From NCBI GenBank assembly GCA_021324685.1, contig JAJPIQ010000062.1:1-34927 (forward strand): 34,927 nt of DNA. Direction: 5' to 3'. The position numbers and the translations under genes were made by a program. Every line of letters starts with the position of its first letter. Position 1 is the first letter of the stretch. This document shows, one piece after another, positions 306 to 34,927 of this stretch. Below the pieces are notes generated by a model. The model searched no databases. It was not told where the DNA came from and saw only the letters and a program-made list of their open reading frames with translations. Source of the DNA: Bacteroidota bacterium. Lineage in GTDB: Bacteria; Bacteroidota; Ignavibacteria; Palsa-1295.

Positions 306-2120
306 TTAATGTGTAACGATGATCGGTTTTACGATGCTTCCGGTCGCGGTTTTGAACACGCAAAAATATGCGCCCGAAGAGAGCGAGCGTGTTACAAGAG
401 GTAGGTGCTGGGAGGTTGGCGTGACCAGGCCATGGTAGATCGTCCGAAGTTCGCGGCCCGTTGCATCGTACAACGCAAGGGAACCATCCTGTTGCGTTGC
501 AGAGGAAATCGCTATGTCGTACGCGAAGGCATTCGCCATTGCTTCGATCGAAAGGCCGGAGGAGCTTTCGGTGCCCGGGCTTACCGAGGATGGCGCTTCC
601 ACAGTCGGATACTTGAGCGCTCGGTACGACTGGAGCCACGGAGTTGTCAGTTCAAATGCGACTGAACCATCAGGCCGGACTTCGGTCATCGTCGCGGTGG
701 CGGCAAACCCCCATCCGATAAAGGTATTGCCATTCGGCATTCGTTGCACCGAGCCCATCGACTGCGCAATGACAGGCGGATCGTGTTGAAATTGCCAGAC
801 GAGTTTAGCAGTATAATTCGTTTCGTCTATTTCATATTCTACCGCGCGGCTTTCGGAGCTTCGGAAGAATCCATTGTCGAACATCAGAATATGGCCGTTA
901 GGAAGCCACCGCGCATAATGCTGCCCGCTGAAGCCACCGAGGGAATCTCCGGATAACATAAATTGATTGTGCAGTCCGCCGAAGCGCCAGATGATATCGC
1001 CGCTTGCGCCATCTATCTTCGTTATTTCACTCAAATGCCGGTTCGAGAGCAGATAGTTACCGTTGGAGTCCCGGTCGAGCGAGTTCGCGTGTTCGAAGTC
1101 GAAGACCTGATTGGCAAAATACATGGCCGCTCCGTCGATCAGGTCATAATGGTCGATCCCACGCCATTCGAATATAAGATTCCCAGCCGGGTCGAAGGAT
1201 TGTATCACATTCCCTTCGACCGGAATCGAGCCAGGAGCGCCAGGAATAACGGACGAAAGCGGCTCGGTGTAGAGTTGAAGTCCAATGAGCGAAAAGCTCC
1301 CGTCGCGATAAATTCGAAGCTCATGGCCATCCAGGAATACTCCGTCGATTGACGAGAAGGTGTCGATGACATGATAATTGCTGTCAAGACCCAAATAGAC
1401 CGAATCGATATTGTTGAAATAGGTCATTTCGCCATCGTCCTGGTATTCGAAGTCAAAGCAGCCTTTTTGATGTGAAGAATCGACCAATGCCCCATCTTGT
1501 GTAATGCGTGCAAGCATATTGGAATAGCCGCTGACAGGACCGTCCATTGCCAAATAAATCGTTCCGCCCTGCGGAGTTCCGTTCACACTCGGGGTGAATT
1601 CGGAACCCCAGGGAATTGTATCGAACGGCGGTGGTGGCGGGGGAGGCGGCGGTGGTGGTGGCGGGCCGGAATCGACGGTCAACTTGCCATCTTTTATTGG
1701 CGCTTTTGCAAGGACTGATCGCAGGTCCCGTTGCATTGTCTCGAATGAGAACGAGTCCCTGACCATCGAACCGTCGGTCAGTGCAGCCTGAAAATAGACT
1801 GTGACAGATTCATTATAAAAGAACGGAGTGGACGGCTGAAAAATAGCCGTCCTTTCATCGAGTGAAAGCTGCACTCTTCCGGAATGTAAGCCAGAGATGG
1901 AACCTCTGATAGTGAAAATTATTCGATCAGGATTCCGTGAAAAAGTGGTTTTCGCACTGATTCCGATCTGGGTTCGAGGCGAGACCTCTCGCGCATCGGC
2001 GAGAGGATACTGCCGCTCGATTTCCGGAGCGTTGTGAATCGTGTGACCAACCGTAGCTGCCGGACGACTGCTGAGCAGTGCCGCCAGGAGGCTGTAGTGA
2101 ACGAAAGATTGACGGATCAT
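306..2120 (-). CDS. Secreted aryl-sulfate sulfotransferase (copy 1) with T9SS-type tail
   Basis: Predicted PAPS-independent arylsulfotransferase (ASST family), which moves sulfate between phenolic compounds outside the cytoplasm. 604 aa from the ATG at 2120. Order: signal peptide (about 1-25); an Ig-like beta domain (about 40-130); a 13-proline linker (codons at 1664-1626); an ASST beta-propeller (about 170-510) with the telling stretch FDFEHANSLDRDSNGNYLLS and the repeats KIDGASGDIIWRFGG and WLPNGHILMFDNG; and a C-terminal beta domain ending SGAYFCVFKTATGSIVKPII, which resembles a type IX secretion sorting domain. I chose ATG 2120 over an in-frame start at 2162 because it begins directly with a signal peptide and the bases upstream match those before copy 2. 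Whether it still transfers sulfate is not shown; the T9SS assignment is by C-terminal pattern. Confidence 0.85.
   Translation of the reverse strand: MIRQSFVHYSLLAALLSSRPAATVGHTIHNAPEIERQYPLADAREVSPRTQIGISAKTTFSRNPDRIIFTIRGSISGLHSGRVQLSLDERTAIFQPSTPFFYNESVTVYFQAALTDGSMVRDSFSFETMQRDLRSVLAKAPIKDGKLTVDSGPPPPPPPPPPPPPFDTIPWGSEFTPSVNGTPQGGTIYLAMDGPVSGYSNMLARITQDGALVDSSHQKGCFDFEYQDDGEMTYFNNIDSVYLGLDSNYHVIDTFSSIDGVFLDGHELRIYRDGSFSLIGLQLYTEPLSSVIPGAPGSIPVEGNVIQSFDPAGNLIFEWRGIDHYDLIDGAAMYFANQVFDFEHANSLDRDSNGNYLLSNRHLSEITKIDGASGDIIWRFGGLHNQFMLSGDSLGGFSGQHYARWLPNGHILMFDNGFFRSSESRAVEYEIDETNYTAKLVWQFQHDPPVIAQSMGSVQRMPNGNTFIGWGFAATATMTEVRPDGSVAFELTTPWLQSYRALKYPTVEAPSSVSPGTESSSGLSIEAMANAFAYDIAISSATQQDGSLALYDATGRELRTIYHGLVTPTSQHLPLVTRSLSSGAYFCVFKTATGSIVKPIIVTH
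1626..1664 (-). repeat. Poly-proline codon tract (13 Pro) in sulfotransferase 1
   Basis: Thirteen consecutive proline codons (CCG, CCA, CCT, CCC mixed) between the Ig-like and propeller domains. On the plus strand the tract is an unbroken run of NGG triplets. It probably forms a stiff spacer. The second copy of the gene has 14 prolines at the same place, so the length differs between paralogs. Confidence 0.95.
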
Positions 2121-2175
2121 CGCTATAACGAGATGTAAGTGAACTCGATAGCGAAGTGACAAAGAAAAATTTATG

Positions 2176-2188
2176 ACCGACGGTCGGT
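2176..2188. promoter_or_regulatory. Short palindrome upstream of sulfotransferase 1
   Basis: ACCGAC-G-GTCGGT is a 6-bp perfect dyad with a one-base centre, 56 bases upstream of the sulfotransferase 1 ATG in the 187-base gap between the two paralogs. The short centre suits a protein-binding site better than an RNA hairpin. No regulator is identified. The rest of this gap shows no terminator or gene. Confidence 0.3.
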
Positions 2189-2307
2189 GTCCTGAAAGAA
2201 TCGTTTTTGAAAGCGACCAATGCGGCCGTCGAACGGTTGCTCTGCGGGTCGATATTCATAGAGACGTTCTCGTTCACACCCAGAATGAAGCAGTCAGTTT
2301 AAGAAGC

Positions 2308-4131
2308 TTAATGCGTGACAAGGATCGGCTTTACGACGCTTTCGGTTGCCGACTTGATTACGCAAAAATAGGCGCCGGAGGGAATCGTTCTCGTTGCCAG
2401 CAAAAGCTCTTGCGTGGCCGGCGTAACGTTGCCGCGGTAAATTCGCATGAGTTCACGGCCAGTCCCATCGTATAAATCAACGGAAGCATCCTGTTCGGTA
2501 CCGGAAGCAATAGAGATATTGTAGCCGGATAACGTCGCCGTTGCTTCGATCGAGAGGCCCGAAGAGGCCGGCGCACGCACCTTGACAGAGGAAGGTGCTT
2601 CGACTGTTGGATATTTGAGCGCACGGTACGATTGCAACCACGGCGTCGTCATATCGAAGACTACAGATCCATCGGGACGGACCTCCGTCATCGTTTCCGA
2701 AAATGAAGCCCCCCAGCCAATGAACGTGTTGCCGTTCGGCATCCGCTGAACGGAACCCATCGCGGCCGAATAGACCGGAGGATCGTGGTGATATTGCCAC
2801 ACGAGCGTGGCCGTATGATTTTTTTCGTCCATGGCATATTCGACGCCGCGACTTTCCGGAACGTCGTGGAACGAGCCGTTATCGAAAAGCAAGATATTAC
2901 CGTTCGGAAGCCAGTGAGCATAATGCTGGCCGCTGAACCCGCCGATCGTATCGTTTAAGACGGTAAACTGATCGTGCAGTCCTCCAAAGCGCCACATGAA
3001 ATCGCCCGTTGTGCCATCGATTTTTGTGAGTTCGCTTAAATTCCTGTTCGAAAGAAGGTAGTCTCCGTTGGCATCGCGGTCGATCGAATTGGCGTGCTCG
3101 AAATCGAAGATCTGGTTCGCAAAATAGAGTGCCGCAGCGTCGATGATATCATAATGGTCGATACCACGCCATTCGAAGATGAGATTATGATCTCGATCGA
3201 ACGTTTGAATGACATTGCCTTCGACAGGAATGCTTCCCGGCGCATCCGGAATGACATCGGAAAGCGGTTCGGAATAGATCTGAAGACCAATGAGCGTATA
3301 ATCTCCATTGGCATAGACACGGAGTTCATGTCCATCTAAAAATGCACCGTTGATCGTCGCGAAGGTGTCGATATTACGATAATGATTGTCCAGGCCGTAA
3401 TAAACAGAGTCCAGGTCACTGTAATAGGTCATTTCGCCATTGTCCTGCAGCTTAAAATCGAAACAACCATAGCGGTGAGCGGAGTCGATGAGGCTCCCGT
3501 CCTGCGTCATGCGTACAAGAAGATTCGTGTACCCCTCCGCCATCCCGCCCAACGCAAGATAAATAATTCCTTGCGTTGGAGTGCTATCGATGGAGGGGCT
3601 GAACTCGGAGATCCACGGTACCGTATCGAAAGGCGGCGGAGGCGGTGGTGGAGGCGGCGGCGGGGGTGGGGGGGCACCAGAATCGACCGTCATTTTCCCC
3701 GTTTTTACCGGAGCTTTGGACGCAAACCAATGCAGCTCTTTCTGCATCGTAACAAATGAGAACGAATCGCTGACAACAGAACCGTCGGTCATAACCGACG
3801 AGAATACGACCACGACGGACTCATTGTACAGGAATGGAGTAAGGGGCTGAAAAATGGCTGTCTTACCGTCCAACGAAAGGTGCGCATGCCCTTCATGCGG
3901 TCCGGAGACAGAGCCCGTTACTCGGAAACTGAGGTCCTCGGTATTGGGGGAAAAGGCGCCTCGGGCGCTAATGCCGATTTGAGTTTGCGGGGCGACTTCG
4001 GTCGCGCCGGCCAGTGGATATTGGCGAATAATGGCCGAGGAGTGGATGCCACCATCGGCAAAAGCAAAAACAGGAATAGTGCTCATGGCCATTGCCACGA
4101 GCAAACGAAGAACGAGAGGTCGATTGTACAT
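2308..4131 (-). CDS. Secreted aryl-sulfate sulfotransferase (copy 2) with T9SS-type tail
   Basis: 607-aa paralog of the adjacent gene, with the same architecture: signal peptide (MYNRPLVLRLLVAMAMSTIP...), Ig-like domain, 14-proline linker, ASST beta-propeller (FDFEHANSIDRDANGDYLLS; KIDGTTGDFMWRFGG; WLPNGNILLFDNG) and a T9SS-like C-terminal domain ending SGAYFCVIKSATESVVKPIL. The two proteins are colinear throughout and share the final IVTH, so they arose by tandem duplication. The ATG at 4131 follows an upstream block nearly the same as that before copy 1. Family knowledge: ASSTs use phenolic sulfate esters as donors and need no PAPS. The role here (detoxification, scavenging of sulfated aromatics or polysaccharides) is open. 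No sulfatase or disulfide-bond partner lies nearby. Confidence 0.85.
   Translation of the reverse strand: MYNRPLVLRLLVAMAMSTIPVFAFADGGIHSSAIIRQYPLAGATEVAPQTQIGISARGAFSPNTEDLSFRVTGSVSGPHEGHAHLSLDGKTAIFQPLTPFLYNESVVVVFSSVMTDGSVVSDSFSFVTMQKELHWFASKAPVKTGKMTVDSGAPPPPPPPPPPPPPPFDTVPWISEFSPSIDSTPTQGIIYLALGGMAEGYTNLLVRMTQDGSLIDSAHRYGCFDFKLQDNGEMTYYSDLDSVYYGLDNHYRNIDTFATINGAFLDGHELRVYANGDYTLIGLQIYSEPLSDVIPDAPGSIPVEGNVIQTFDRDHNLIFEWRGIDHYDIIDAAALYFANQIFDFEHANSIDRDANGDYLLSNRNLSELTKIDGTTGDFMWRFGGLHDQFTVLNDTIGGFSGQHYAHWLPNGNILLFDNGSFHDVPESRGVEYAMDEKNHTATLVWQYHHDPPVYSAAMGSVQRMPNGNTFIGWGASFSETMTEVRPDGSVVFDMTTPWLQSYRALKYPTVEAPSSVKVRAPASSGLSIEATATLSGYNISIASGTEQDASVDLYDGTGRELMRIYRGNVTPATQELLLATRTIPSGAYFCVIKSATESVVKPILVTH
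3631..3672 (-). repeat. Poly-proline codon tract (14 Pro) in sulfotransferase 2
   Basis: Fourteen consecutive proline codons, preceded on the N-terminal side by Gly-Ala. The plus strand shows NGG triplets and a G7 homopolymer at 3668-3674 at one end. Slippage in triplets would change linker length; slippage inside the G7 run would shift frame. It is the counterpart of the 13-Pro tract at 1626-1664. Confidence 0.95.
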
Positions 4132-4211: not shown

Positions 4212-4268
4212 ACGAAAAAATTATTTCTTTTTCGTTAAAATACGGTGAAATCGCTTTTTTTGCGATTT
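4212..4268 (-). terminator. Two AT-rich stem-loops after the membrane protein gene
   Basis: Two perfect inverted repeats follow the stop of the gene ending at 4268: AAATCGC/GCGATTT (4248-4254 and 4262-4268, loop of T) and ACGAAAAA/TTTTTCGT (4212-4219 and 4228-4235). The stretch is clearly more AT-rich than its surroundings. Together they may end transcription on the minus strand, but neither has a strong GC stem, so this is a weak call. Confidence 0.35.
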
Positions 4269-5593
4269 TAATGATATGCGACCGATATTTTTCCAGCGCC
4301 ACTGGAAAGATGGAGCGTGAGTACCGGGCTTGTCGAATAATTGAACCCAGGACTCGTGGCATATCCATCCCGCCTGACAGCCAGGCCGGAGAACGAATAC
4401 GAACTGAGAAGACCGTCATCGAAAAAGACCTGTACACGCGCTGCAGTGGCAGGAATAGAAAGCGTGCACATTCCAAGGCCAAGTTCAATCACTGCATCGA
4501 GATTTCGCGTCAATTTTCCTTCGAAGCCCAAATGATAGCTTCCCACCGCCCCATGGAAAAGAAAGTGTTCTGCATTGAGGTAAGAGATTCCGTTGAACGT
4601 GCATTGTCCAAGCCCGGCGCGGAGCGAGCATGTTTCGAGTGGCTGCGGGTTTGGCTCGGTAGAATAGAGATATGCTTTCGAAGCGCCCGTCTCGATCTCG
4701 GCATCGGTGAGTGGCAGGCCGCTTAAATTAAGGACCGACTCGCCAAAGCCAAGATCTGCGGCAAAATACATGGGGAAGTCCTTTGTAAGGCGGATCCGAG
4801 TGCCCGCAGCAGGGCTGGGAGGAGGTATATCGCCGGCGTCTGTCATTATTGTTCGAGAGGCAGAGCCGATCGCTGGTCCGTTGGGAAAATCGTAAAAGAG
4901 CGGTGGCAGAGAGAAACGAGGAGAGACCGACAGGAACGGGTTTGCAGGTATTGGACAGCCTCGGTCGGACTGCGGTTCATTCGAGGTCGCAAGCGAAAAA
5001 CGATTCTCGTTATTTGCGTACCACATCGCCACCGGTGGGCCGCCGCGCATTCCTTCATCGGTTCCGATCCCAATGTGGAGTACTCCGACCGTCGCATCCC
5101 GCAGTCCATAGCTCCATTGGAAATTGTGGGCATTGGCATCTTCCTCGAGCATTTGGACCGTGGCTACGTCGTTCGGATCCGCACCGGCGCGAAGATCGAC
5201 CGAGCCATAAGGAGCTTCCAGACGGAAGACGAGCCGTTGCTCCTGACCTTTTCGAGGAATGTGCGAGGTAAAATACTTCTCAACGCCAAAGGCAACAACC
5301 GCAGCGACGCCAATGAACGCGACCGTAATAATCCCTACACGAACAGGGGATCGGAGACCAATGGGCGTGCGAGCGTGAACGCCAGATAGAGAGGGGCGCT
5401 TTGGAAAATCGGTCGGCTCCTGCTGATCGGCCGTCACAAGGGCTCTTTCGAGAATAAAAAGAGGGTTTCGCGTCGGCCACACGCGAAGATGGTGAATACG
5501 CAATTTAGCCAGATTCCGGTACGAAGGGGGTAAAGTGGATGTTTCGTTCTTTGGCGCGAAAACGCGCGTTTCGGAAACCGCAGACCGCTTCAT
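4268..5593 (-). CDS. Membrane-anchored beta-rich protein, LiaF/'toast-rack'-like C-terminal part
   Basis: Function unknown. 441 aa from ATG 5593. A basic, low-complexity N-terminal part (about 1-85) is followed by one membrane segment (about 86-104, VGIITVAFIGVAAVVAFGV), then a long extracytoplasmic region. The last third repeats short strand patterns (LGFGESVLNLSGLPLTDAEI, GLGMCTLSIPATAARV, SSGAGKISVAYH). These resemble the Gly-rich beta-helix or 'toast-rack' repeats of LiaF and DUF4097-type proteins; this is pattern resemblance, not proof. An in-frame TTG at 5632 would add 13 residues (MQGSVEIDDALEH) but would overlap the divergent gene, so ATG 5593 is preferred with moderate confidence. 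The divergent neighbour starts only 33 bases away, so the two probably share a control region. Confidence 0.6.
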   Translation of the reverse strand: MKRSAVSETRVFAPKNETSTLPPSYRNLAKLRIHHLRVWPTRNPLFILERALVTADQQEPTDFPKRPSLSGVHARTPIGLRSPVRVGIITVAFIGVAAVVAFGVEKYFTSHIPRKGQEQRLVFRLEAPYGSVDLRAGADPNDVATVQMLEEDANAHNFQWSYGLRDATVGVLHIGIGTDEGMRGGPPVAMWYANNENRFSLATSNEPQSDRGCPIPANPFLSVSPRFSLPPLFYDFPNGPAIGSASRTIMTDAGDIPPPSPAAGTRIRLTKDFPMYFAADLGFGESVLNLSGLPLTDAEIETGASKAYLYSTEPNPQPLETCSLRAGLGQCTFNGISYLNAEHFLFHGAVGSYHLGFEGKLTRNLDAVIELGLGMCTLSIPATAARVQVFFDDGLLSSYSFSGLAVRRDGYATSPGFNYSTSPVLTLHLSSGAGKISVAYH

Positions 5594-5626
5594 GTGTTCT
5601 AAGGCATCATCAATCTCGACCGACCC

Positions 5627-6847
5627 TTGCAAATTTTTCGGACTCCCATCTGCCAGATTTTCTTAATACTTCTAAGCGCGGGAATTTTTGGTTGCTTCAG
5701 AACGAACATTGCTTTTGGGCAACAACCCGAAAGTACAACGCCTCAACTCGATTATAATTTTCCCTTTCATACCATGTGGGACGATGCCGTGCTTGCATCG
5801 CAAAAATCGGGTAAGCCCGCATTGGTCTTCGATCTCGATCTCGTCGATTCCAACAGCATTAAAGTAGCCAGGGAAGTCATTGCAGATAAAGGACTTCAGG
5901 CATTTATTCGAACTCATTTCGAGCCAGCCCTTAATGATTTTGCCGTCGATCCGCCGCCATCGGTAGGATTGGATAGTTTAAGAAATTTAGGTTGGCGTCT
6001 TAGCGGATTGGAAAAAGATTACTTCATCTCCGTCCGTCCCGCAATCGTTATGATCGCTCCGGATAAAAAAGAAATGGACAGGATTGTGTTTCCTCAGCAG
6101 TTGAATTCTGGCCAGCTTGAGGCGCGATTGACCGAAATCCTACAGGGCAAGAATACAATCCAGAGCACAATTGCTGAATTTTGGCAGGACTCGAATTCGG
6201 TCGAAAAGCGGCAAAAATTGATCGAAATGTTTCAGGAGCGTTCGAAATACGATAGCGTCCTCTATCATTTACAGGTGCTTGGCAAGCGCAATGACGTCCC
6301 GGATGTTGCAAAGGAAGCTCAGATCCGGTACGCGTATTTAAGGCTACAAATTGAGGGGAATACGGTTCCCATCGAGGATTTGATGTCGAAACTCTCGTCG
6401 ACCCCGCAGGATAGTTCTCTCCATTTCGATCTGCTCGAGCGCCTGCTCGAGCATTTTCAGGTCATTAAGCGTGTGGATAGTGTCTCCGCGACGTATGAGA
6501 GAATTTTGAAATTTATTCATTACCGCGACCCCGATATTTTGAACGATTATGCATGGCATTTGGCGAGTTATTCGAAAGATAGTATGACCGATGCTTATGC
6601 GATGATCAATGAAGCGCTTTCTAAGGACGATAAAGAGCCTAATTATTACGATACCCGGGCACTTGTTCTGGGACGTATGCACCGCTTCGATGAAGCGATC
6701 CGCGACGAAGAGACCGCTTTAAGTTACGCGGCGAAATCGGACAAAGAATACTTTCAAACACAGCTCTCTTATTATAAAAAGCTTAAAGCTGAATACGATA
6801 AACTCGAAGCGCAGAAAAGTTCAAAAGCGCACGCCGATAAAAAGTAG
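5627..6847 (+). CDS. Secreted thioredoxin-fold protein with TPR region, no redox cysteines
   Basis: 406 aa. A signal peptide (about 1-30, QIFLILLSAGIFGC...IAFG) is followed by a thioredoxin-like domain (about 40-165; MWDDAVLASQKSGKPALVFD is the usual start of the fold, and VRPAIVMIAP the usual strand with the cis-Pro). The CxxC site expected right after the first strand is absent (DLDLVDSNSI instead), so it is unlikely to be an oxidoreductase. The C-terminal half is helical with TPR-like units (NDYAWHLASYSKD, PNYYDTRALVLGRMHRFDEA). The only canonical start that keeps the signal peptide is TTG 5627, because an in-frame stop lies at 5600-5602. Likely a periplasmic binding or scaffold protein; partner unknown. 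Confidence 0.7.
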   Translation: MQIFRTPICQIFLILLSAGIFGCFRTNIAFGQQPESTTPQLDYNFPFHTMWDDAVLASQKSGKPALVFDLDLVDSNSIKVAREVIADKGLQAFIRTHFEPALNDFAVDPPPSVGLDSLRNLGWRLSGLEKDYFISVRPAIVMIAPDKKEMDRIVFPQQLNSGQLEARLTEILQGKNTIQSTIAEFWQDSNSVEKRQKLIEMFQERSKYDSVLYHLQVLGKRNDVPDVAKEAQIRYAYLRLQIEGNTVPIEDLMSKLSSTPQDSSLHFDLLERLLEHFQVIKRVDSVSATYERILKFIHYRDPDILNDYAWHLASYSKDSMTDAYAMINEALSKDDKEPNYYDTRALVLGRMHRFDEAIRDEETALSYAAKSDKEYFQTQLSYYKKLKAEYDKLEAQKSSKAHADKK

Positions 6848-33034: not shown

Positions 33035-33197
33035 GTTGCCTTAAGAAAGCTCAAAACTATGAAAAATGAGCGTCAGGACCTCAGCAGGAAAATTTTGGCA
33101 TTTTTTCAGCATAACCGTCGCCAGATATTAACGGTCCTTCACAGTGGATGACCTTATTCATTCGCGAAGGGAAACAATCATTCTTTTTTGGAACAAT

Positions 33198-34927
33198 ATG
33201 GCTATTGCTACAAGACTTAAATCACTCGTTGCTTTTGCCTGCTTCGGACTTTTCATTTTTATGAACGGTCCCGCACGCGGCGCAAGCACCTTCTCGGTCT
33301 CTCCTTCTGGTGAGATTAATTTTACCACCCATGCCGGCGCCAGCGATACACAGGCATTGGCGATTCGGAACCTCACCTCCTATCCACTCGTGCTGACGCT
33401 AAATTATAATGGTAGCGGGAGCACTAATTTTTCGACGTCGTCCGGACTTGTAACCGTTCCAGCGAACGGATCGCAAAGCGTCAATCTCTCTTTCAATCCG
33501 ATCGCGGCCGGATTCGACTCTGCGACGTTGAATATCGTTTCTGCGACAGGAGACTCGCTGAGCATCCCGGTCTCCGGCCATGCGACGAGTCTCGGTTCGT
33601 TCCAGATCGTGCAGGGGTCCGGGAATATCGTCTTTAATACCCATGTGGGCACGCCGACCTCTTCCTCGATCGATATTAAGAACCTGACGAATTCACCGCT
33701 AATCGTAACTCCTACGGTCACAGGCAGTTCGCTCTTTACCTTGAGTGCGCCGGCTCTTACGATCCCGGCAAACGGTTCGCAGGACCTGACGATCACGTAT
33801 TCTCCGCTTACCGCCGGCGATGCGAATGGTCGGCTCATGTTTACAGCGTCCAACGGCGATACGGCTTCCGTCGGCCTCGTCGGTCATGCCGTCATGCCGT
33901 CCAACGGCAATCTCAATGTTGCTAACGAAGTCGATTTTAACGCGGAGGTCGGCCAGACGGAATGTCTTCCAGTTATGATTCCAAATCCGGGTCTTGGCAC
34001 ACTCACTTTGACGAACATTCAGGTGACAGGGGATACCGCTGCATTCTCGACATCTTCGAGCACCGGCATGATGGTCAATCCCGGCACAACCGGTTCGATT
34101 GATGTCTGTTTCCATCCCGTCACGGCAAAGGGAGATATCGATGGCAATCTTTCCTTTACATATGCGAACTCGCTGGACAGCACGATAAAAGGAACGGTCA
34201 ATGTGCAACTCGATGGACATGCGACGGCCGCTCCTCCGGGACCGCCGGCGCCCTTCTTTTTAATTACCAATCAGCTTGAATTCAATAATGTCATTGTCGG
34301 ACAGGAAGAATGCCAGGCCCTTCAGATCGCGAATCCTACGAGCGATGCGGTCACGATCGATAGTGCGACGCTTTCCGGAAGCGAAGCTGCGGAGTACAAT
34401 GTCAGCGGCGCGAATATGCTGCAGATCGGCGCAAACTCAACAGAATATGTTACCGTCTGCATGACGCCAATGCAAGCCGGAGGCGATCAGGACGCGACAC
34501 TCGCGCTTCATTATACTGTTAACGGCACATCGACGACGGGAACTCTTAATGTCAAGCTGAATGCGAACGCCATCGATACCACAAGCCCCGAACTCACGAA
34601 TTGCATTTACGTTCGTCATGCCACGGGTGTGATCGGTCCGATTGTACTGGGAGGAATGGACACCAGTTCGATCTTCCTTACAAATCGCACGAATGGAACC
34701 GTAACAATCAGTGGAGCGACACTCAGTGGGGGAGACGCCAGTGCATTTACAATTGGAAACAACCAATTCCCCATGACTCTTCAGTCCGGTCAGGAAGGAC
34801 AACTTCTTGTAACTTTCAATCCGACTGGAATGAACGGTGCCCCGAGCTTCGGTTCGACAATCAATCTGACCCTTACGGGCAACTCAGCCACCTGCGGACC
34901 GGTAAGCATTCATGTCGAGGGCGTCGC
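33198..34927 (+). CDS. Secreted ASH/choice-of-anchor-D repeat protein, 3' end cut by window
   Basis: 576 codons present and open to the last base. Signal peptide (MAIATRLKSLVAFACFGLFI...ARGA) then about five Ig-like repeats of roughly 100 residues each. Each repeat has the ASH pattern: FG.V..G....ALxIxN near its start (INFTTHAGASDTQALAIRNL; VDFNAEVGQTECLPVMIPNP; LEFNNVIVGQEECQALQIAN), then a strand pair and a closing VTFxP/ISFNP strand (VNLSFNPIAAG, LTITYSPLTAG, LVTFNPTG). ASH repeats are common in large secreted or adhesin-like proteins of this group, where a C-terminal T9SS domain often follows; the end is not in the window. ATG 33198 fits the signal peptide; GGAACAAT is not a Shine-Dalgarno. 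Confidence 0.88.
   Translation, partial: MAIATRLKSLVAFACFGLFIFMNGPARGASTFSVSPSGEINFTTHAGASDTQALAIRNLTSYPLVLTLNYNGSGSTNFSTSSGLVTVPANGSQSVNLSFNPIAAGFDSATLNIVSATGDSLSIPVSGHATSLGSFQIVQGSGNIVFNTHVGTPTSSSIDIKNLTNSPLIVTPTVTGSSLFTLSAPALTIPANGSQDLTITYSPLTAGDANGRLMFTASNGDTASVGLVGHAVMPSNGNLNVANEVDFNAEVGQTECLPVMIPNPGLGTLTLTNIQVTGDTAAFSTSSSTGMMVNPGTTGSIDVCFHPVTAKGDIDGNLSFTYANSLDSTIKGTVNVQLDGHATAAPPGPPAPFFLITNQLEFNNVIVGQEECQALQIANPTSDAVTIDSATLSGSEAAEYNVSGANMLQIGANSTEYVTVCMTPMQAGGDQDATLALHYTVNGTSTTGTLNVKLNANAIDTTSPELTNCIYVRHATGVIGPIVLGGMDTSSIFLTNRTNGTVTISGATLSGGDASAFTIGNNQFPMTLQSGQEGQLLVTFNPTGMNGAPSFGSTINLTLTGNSATCGPVSIHVEGV

Follow-up and report, generated by a model that had tools for sequence, protein, structure and literature searches.

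Two neighboring genes near one end of this contig raise the question of whether they encode active sulfotransferases and, if so, on which side of the outer membrane sulfate transfer would take place. The window (the whole stretch of 34,927 nucleotides analyzed here) is contig 35 of an 89-contig genome, which has a size of 3.47 Mb and is 98% complete. The two genes, here termed gene A and gene B (Table 1), are colinear on the minus strand and separated by a 145-base gap, and their proteins are 65% identical, in agreement with a first-pass annotation of this DNA that had placed two colinear paralogs at 306-4131. Gene B is listed with a TTG start at 2162, from which its 618 amino acids are counted, but the ATG at 2120 makes the better start codon.

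Both proteins belong to the arylsulfotransferase (ASST) family, and are predicted to be enzymes that move sulfate groups between small molecules. Pfam assigns Arylsulfotran_2 to the two proteins with E-values of 3e-22 and 2e-20, and Arylsulfotrans with ∼1e-19; the scores for these families (PF05935 and PF14269; 70.8-79.7 bits) are far above the cut-offs of 24.2 and 27. The fold match of the propeller (residues ∼161-511) describes a six-bladed structure, and the best match by both sequence and fold is Cpz4, the caprazamycin sulfotransferase from Streptomyces sp. (PDB 9kf4, 9kf6; Z 42.5 over 334 residues), followed by AssT from Escherichia coli CFT073 (PDB 3elq, 3ets, 4p04) at Z 33; the highest-ranking unrelated protein reaches only 21. 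A homologue-profile search likewise recovers Cpz4 (E 2.9e-68) and AssT (E 2.4e-14). Cpz4, an active enzyme (PMC13426309) that is part of an antibiotic pathway, has catalytic motifs that align with those of the window proteins, but it aligns to the propeller only, and the matches show no counterpart of their Ig domain, proline run, or T9SS tail. AssT has the same propeller fold, with 18-19% identity to the window proteins over this region. AssT is not known to have a T9SS tail. Cargo of the T9SS type A class (TIGR04183, PF18962) carries an Ig-like sorting domain at the C-terminus, and the window proteins probably end in such a domain.

The layout proposed in the first-pass annotation, in which an Ig-like domain is followed by 13-14 prolines, an ASST propeller, and a T9SS-like tail, is recovered in both proteins from profiles and modeling. 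An AlphaFold2 model of gene A, built with 58 aligned homologues (mean pLDDT 87.8), has a folded Ig domain, propeller, and tail; pLDDT falls below 50 only at residues 20-26, 139-164, and 511-519, with disorder in the proline region and in the short linker ahead of the tail. The N-termini of both proteins are hydrophobic and, as read by eye, resemble signal peptides. Matches to Big_5 are just below the Pfam cut-off in both proteins (23.3 and 22.7 versus 23.6 bits), and CopC is the top fold match of the gene A Ig domain. A copper-carrying role was considered on account of CopC, but the fold is also common to other sandwiches. As to a possible homology of this domain with the sandwich at the AssT N-terminus, AssT was absent from its fold-match lists.

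Table 1. Coordinates of genes, domains, and catalytic codons of the ASST pair, in positions of the window.
Feature	Position	Strand	Evidence
Gene A, 607-aa arylsulfotransferase-family protein	2308..4131	-	Pfam PF14269 2e-20, PF05935 1.1e-19; AF2 model
Gene A signal-peptide-like N-terminus, residues 1-26	4054..4131	-	Read by eye; helix 4-17 in model
Gene A Ig-like domain, residues 28-135, Big_5/CopC-like sandwich	3727..4050	-	PF13205 22.7 bits; Z 13.8 to CopC
Gene A poly-proline run, 14 Pro, residues 154-167	3631..3672	-	Sequence
Gene A propeller, residues 168-511	2599..3630	-	Z 42.5 to Cpz4, 33 to AssT
Gene A putative catalytic His403 codon (EcAssT His436)	2923..2925	-	Alignment
Gene A T9SS type A-like C-terminal domain, residues 520-607	2311..2574	-	TIGR04183 23.8 bits in genome search, 19.6 on protein
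Gene B, arylsulfotransferase-family paralogue	306..2120	-	Start taken at ATG 2120, with the frame open as far as TTG 2162; PF14269 3.3e-22
Gene B poly-proline run, 13 Pro	1626..1664	-	Sequence
Gene B putative catalytic His415 codon, numbered from TTG (EcAssT His436)	918..920	-	Alignment
Gene B T9SS type A-like C-terminal domain	315..515	-	TIGR04183 26.4 bits, genome search

Where these enzymes would act depends on the C-terminal domain. When the whole proteins are searched, Por_Secre_tail is below the Pfam cut-off in both (16 and 19.4 versus 27 bits), as is TIGR04183 (22.6 and 19.6 bits versus a cut-off of 23), while a search of the whole genome raises the TIGR04183 scores of gene B and gene A to 26.4 and 23.8, respectively, above the same cut-off. 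The genome holds ∼150 TIGR04183 tails, including those of gene A, gene B, and one other ASST, and encodes PorU (676 bits; cut-off 420), PorV (255; cut-off 250), and SprA (574; cut-off 200), all above their equivalog cut-offs. The porU and porV genes are adjacent, and three C25 peptidases are also present. GldM was not found in this genome with TIGR03517, a search that is uninformative, since no control matched either. The first-pass annotation had proposed a T9SS-type tail and had made its reading depend on a match of the C-terminus to T9SS profiles; the tails do match, if weakly, and the T9SS core genes accompany them. The profiles by themselves thus leave the tails close to the cut-off, and it is the genomic context that backs them: the ∼150 tails together with PorU, PorV, and SprA make T9SS export of both proteins likely.

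Alternatively, the two proteins could be active sulfotransferases that stay in the periplasm, with a degenerate or ordinary C-terminal Ig-like domain that carries no working export signal. This arrangement would resemble that of AssT and related enzymes, which are periplasmic (PMC13426309), and is in line with the sub-threshold scores of the tails on the whole proteins, as well as with paralogue L002, in which no T9SS match occurs at E 0.01. We nevertheless regard a periplasmic location as improbable, given that both tails score above the cut-off of TIGR04183 when the whole genome is searched, that the export components are encoded in the genome, and that T9SS tail profiles match 42-43 of the 58 homologues; the dockerin-type ends of relatives outside the lineage likewise point outside the cell.

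A 2026 review names six active-site residues of AssT: His252, His356, Asn358, Arg374, His436, and Thr501 (PMC13426309). Five of the six are shared by the window proteins: in a profile alignment to 3elq, H268, H346, N348, R363, and H403 of gene A fall on EcAssT H252, H356, N358, R374, and H436. Taken singly, the segments around H252 (0 bits) and H356/N358/R374 (7 bits) are weak, but the numbered residues match up exactly. The catalytic His, on whose retention the first-pass annotation had staked the sulfotransferase assignment, is kept as H403 in gene A and H415 in gene B. All five residues are invariant in 58 homologues at ∼30% identity, which is difficult to account for unless catalysis is under selection, with the invariance of H346 and N348 partly ascertained, as one of the two patterns used in the scan for relatives covered the motif of these two residues (H268, R363, and H403 are unaffected). 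Gene A has 67 positions occupied by His, Asn, or Arg; only six of them are invariant among the homologues, and five of these six constitute the active-site set. The sixth AssT residue, Thr501, aligns with Met458 of gene A, and at this position Met occurs in 45 of the 58 homologues and Thr in one. As read from the alignments, the active site is therefore not identical to that of AssT, as Thr501 has no counterpart, and this Thr does not define the wider family, because Cpz4 also lacks it. Least probable of the readings considered is that of a secreted binding or adhesion module, in which the propeller would retain the fold but have lost sulfotransferase activity: propellers often serve as scaffolds for binding, the pair has no linked pathway gene, and Thr501 is not kept, but the five invariant residues argue against it, as does the activity of Cpz4, which has no Thr either.

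Each window protein contains two cysteines: the propeller has one of them, and the tail the other. AssT, a periplasmic enzyme, requires a disulfide that is formed by DsbL/DsbI (PMC13426309), and the window proteins have no counterpart of this disulfide. Because the two cysteines lie in different domains, neither an active-site disulfide nor a Dsb pair is to be expected here. The first-pass annotation had remarked that no sulfatase or DsbA/B-like partner is adjacent; no gene of either kind is named among the scanned window genes, so that the remark stands as an observation, although the Dsb part of it carries no information.

We consider it probable that the pair represents a recent tandem duplicate of a PAPS-independent sulfotransferase of the Cpz4/AssT type, exported by the T9SS and operating by an AssT-like ping-pong mechanism outside the outer membrane. 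The analysis shows the domain architecture, the conserved active site, the T9SS genes, and the distribution in the lineage, whereas activity, export, donor, acceptor, and what the spacer does are inferred. The protein would be made with a Sec signal and then be directed by the Ig-like domain at its C-terminus to the T9SS (the SprA translocon, PorV, and the PorU sortase), such that the propeller would end up outside the outer membrane, either attached or released. There, as in AssT, His403 (His415 in gene B) would take the sulfuryl group from an environmental aryl sulfate, with His268, His346, Asn348, and Arg363 assisting this transfer, and would subsequently pass it on to an acceptor with a hydroxyl group. 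The prolines may form a stiff spacer that keeps the Ig domain and the enzyme apart.

When species-representative genomes were scanned, 205 relatives were found, and the best of them come from MAGs that bear the label Ignavibacteria, Kapabacteria, or Bacteroidetes. Among the 58 aligned proteins (five of them from this genome), Por_Secre_tail occurs in 43 and Big_5 in 32 (E <= 0.01). By these profile matches, the combination of Ig domain, propeller, and T9SS tail is the common layout of the family in genomes of the Ignavibacteria/Kapabacteria type and no peculiarity of this pair. In some relatives outside the lineage the protein instead has a dockerin-type end, and the sequence ends show the same swap. 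Three relatives labelled Verrucomicrobia (L069, L102, and L103) have lectin-like (Laminin_G_3), CBM_4_9, fn3, and dockerin domains, additions that hint at a polysaccharide as partner or acceptor. The occurrence of T9SS tails, dockerin-type ends, and carbohydrate-binding domains among the relatives shows repeated joining of the enzyme to extracellular targeting parts. In a partial literature search, no papers were found that join an ASST or sulfotransferase with the T9SS or with Ignavibacteria, and the ASST-T9SS domain combination, while widespread in the lineage, seems to be undescribed.

Long proline runs are far more restricted. Among 68 tree members, they occur only in the window pair (14 and 13 residues), in L028 (13), and in one of the L032 copies (8), all of which are at this locus. 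The poly-proline spacer is a feature of this syntenic ASST, and its sole unusual added part. A slippage microsatellite was ruled out as the source of the run, as its CCN codons are mixed. Elsewhere in the same genome, a 159-aa protein with a 15-proline run and no Pfam match is encoded on another contig (L168:1488-1967; G000 C75).

The PAPS-independent sulfotransferases described so far work either in the periplasm or as part of antibiotic pathways, and little is known about which donors and acceptors they use in nature (PMC13426309). In the present genome (G000, 98% complete), no match to the PF00884 sulfatase, the PF01583 APS kinase, or the PF13469 (Sulfotransfer_3) sulfotransferase was found in searches that covered these three profiles, not PF00685, and whose controls worked; genes in a missing 2% would have escaped them. 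If upheld, the absence of an APS kinase would imply that the usual PAPS synthesis does not take place, and that the exported ASSTs depend on sulfated phenols from outside. The five ASSTs may thus provide the main sulfuryl-transfer activity of a genome in which these three families were not detected, with donors drawn from the environment. More tentatively, and at present doubtfully, sulfuryl chemistry as a whole could be located outside the cell in this organism, which would be unable to make PAPS and would lack formylglycine sulfatases, and in which expanded, T9SS-exported ASSTs would swap sulfate between environmental phenolic sulfates and acceptors at the surface or in the matrix. A large, repeatedly duplicated family of T9SS-exported enzymes would, if borne out, put sulfuryl transfer at the cell surface, where phenolic sulfates from the environment and polymers outside the cell are accessible. 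A genome with no detectable sulfatase or APS kinase offers a clean setting for asking what role these ASSTs have, and those of the window are candidate enzymes for PAPS-free sulfation.

Across the family, 11 of 13 genomes carry ASSTs, with up to eight in each (five here), and tandem arrays of two to four are frequent. Four-gene arrays, in which each ASST-family gene encodes 590-650 aa, occur at L163 (G010 C22), L166 (G005 C11), and L164 (G012 C108). Downstream of the window pair lies the start of metK, read by eye as MetK at that window end, and in related genomes the start of MetK (21 protein letters) is found at the corresponding place. Upstream of gene A, the gene at 4268-5632 (minus strand) matches no Pfam or NCBIfam family and has a hydrophobic stretch near its N-terminus; it is kept in all ten good genomes of the family, either directly before metK or before the ASSTs that are inserted there. 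In sister genomes with this gene order, the number of intervening ASSTs is none (G008), one (G007), or two (G005). The upstream gene was rejected as a partner of the ASSTs: it adjoins them in three genomes, yet in G008 it stands directly before metK with no ASSTs between. An all-against-all comparison of the 5-kb flanks of 79 loci identified no neighbor common to more than four loci, except for further ASSTs. Gene A and gene B group together in the tree as sisters (support 100), and the two L032 copies are sisters as well; since paralogues are sisters within each genome, the duplications appear to be independent or homogenised. At the opposite end of the window, a large, open-ended ORF (33144-34925, plus strand) encodes many Ig-like repeats of the ASH/HYDIN type.
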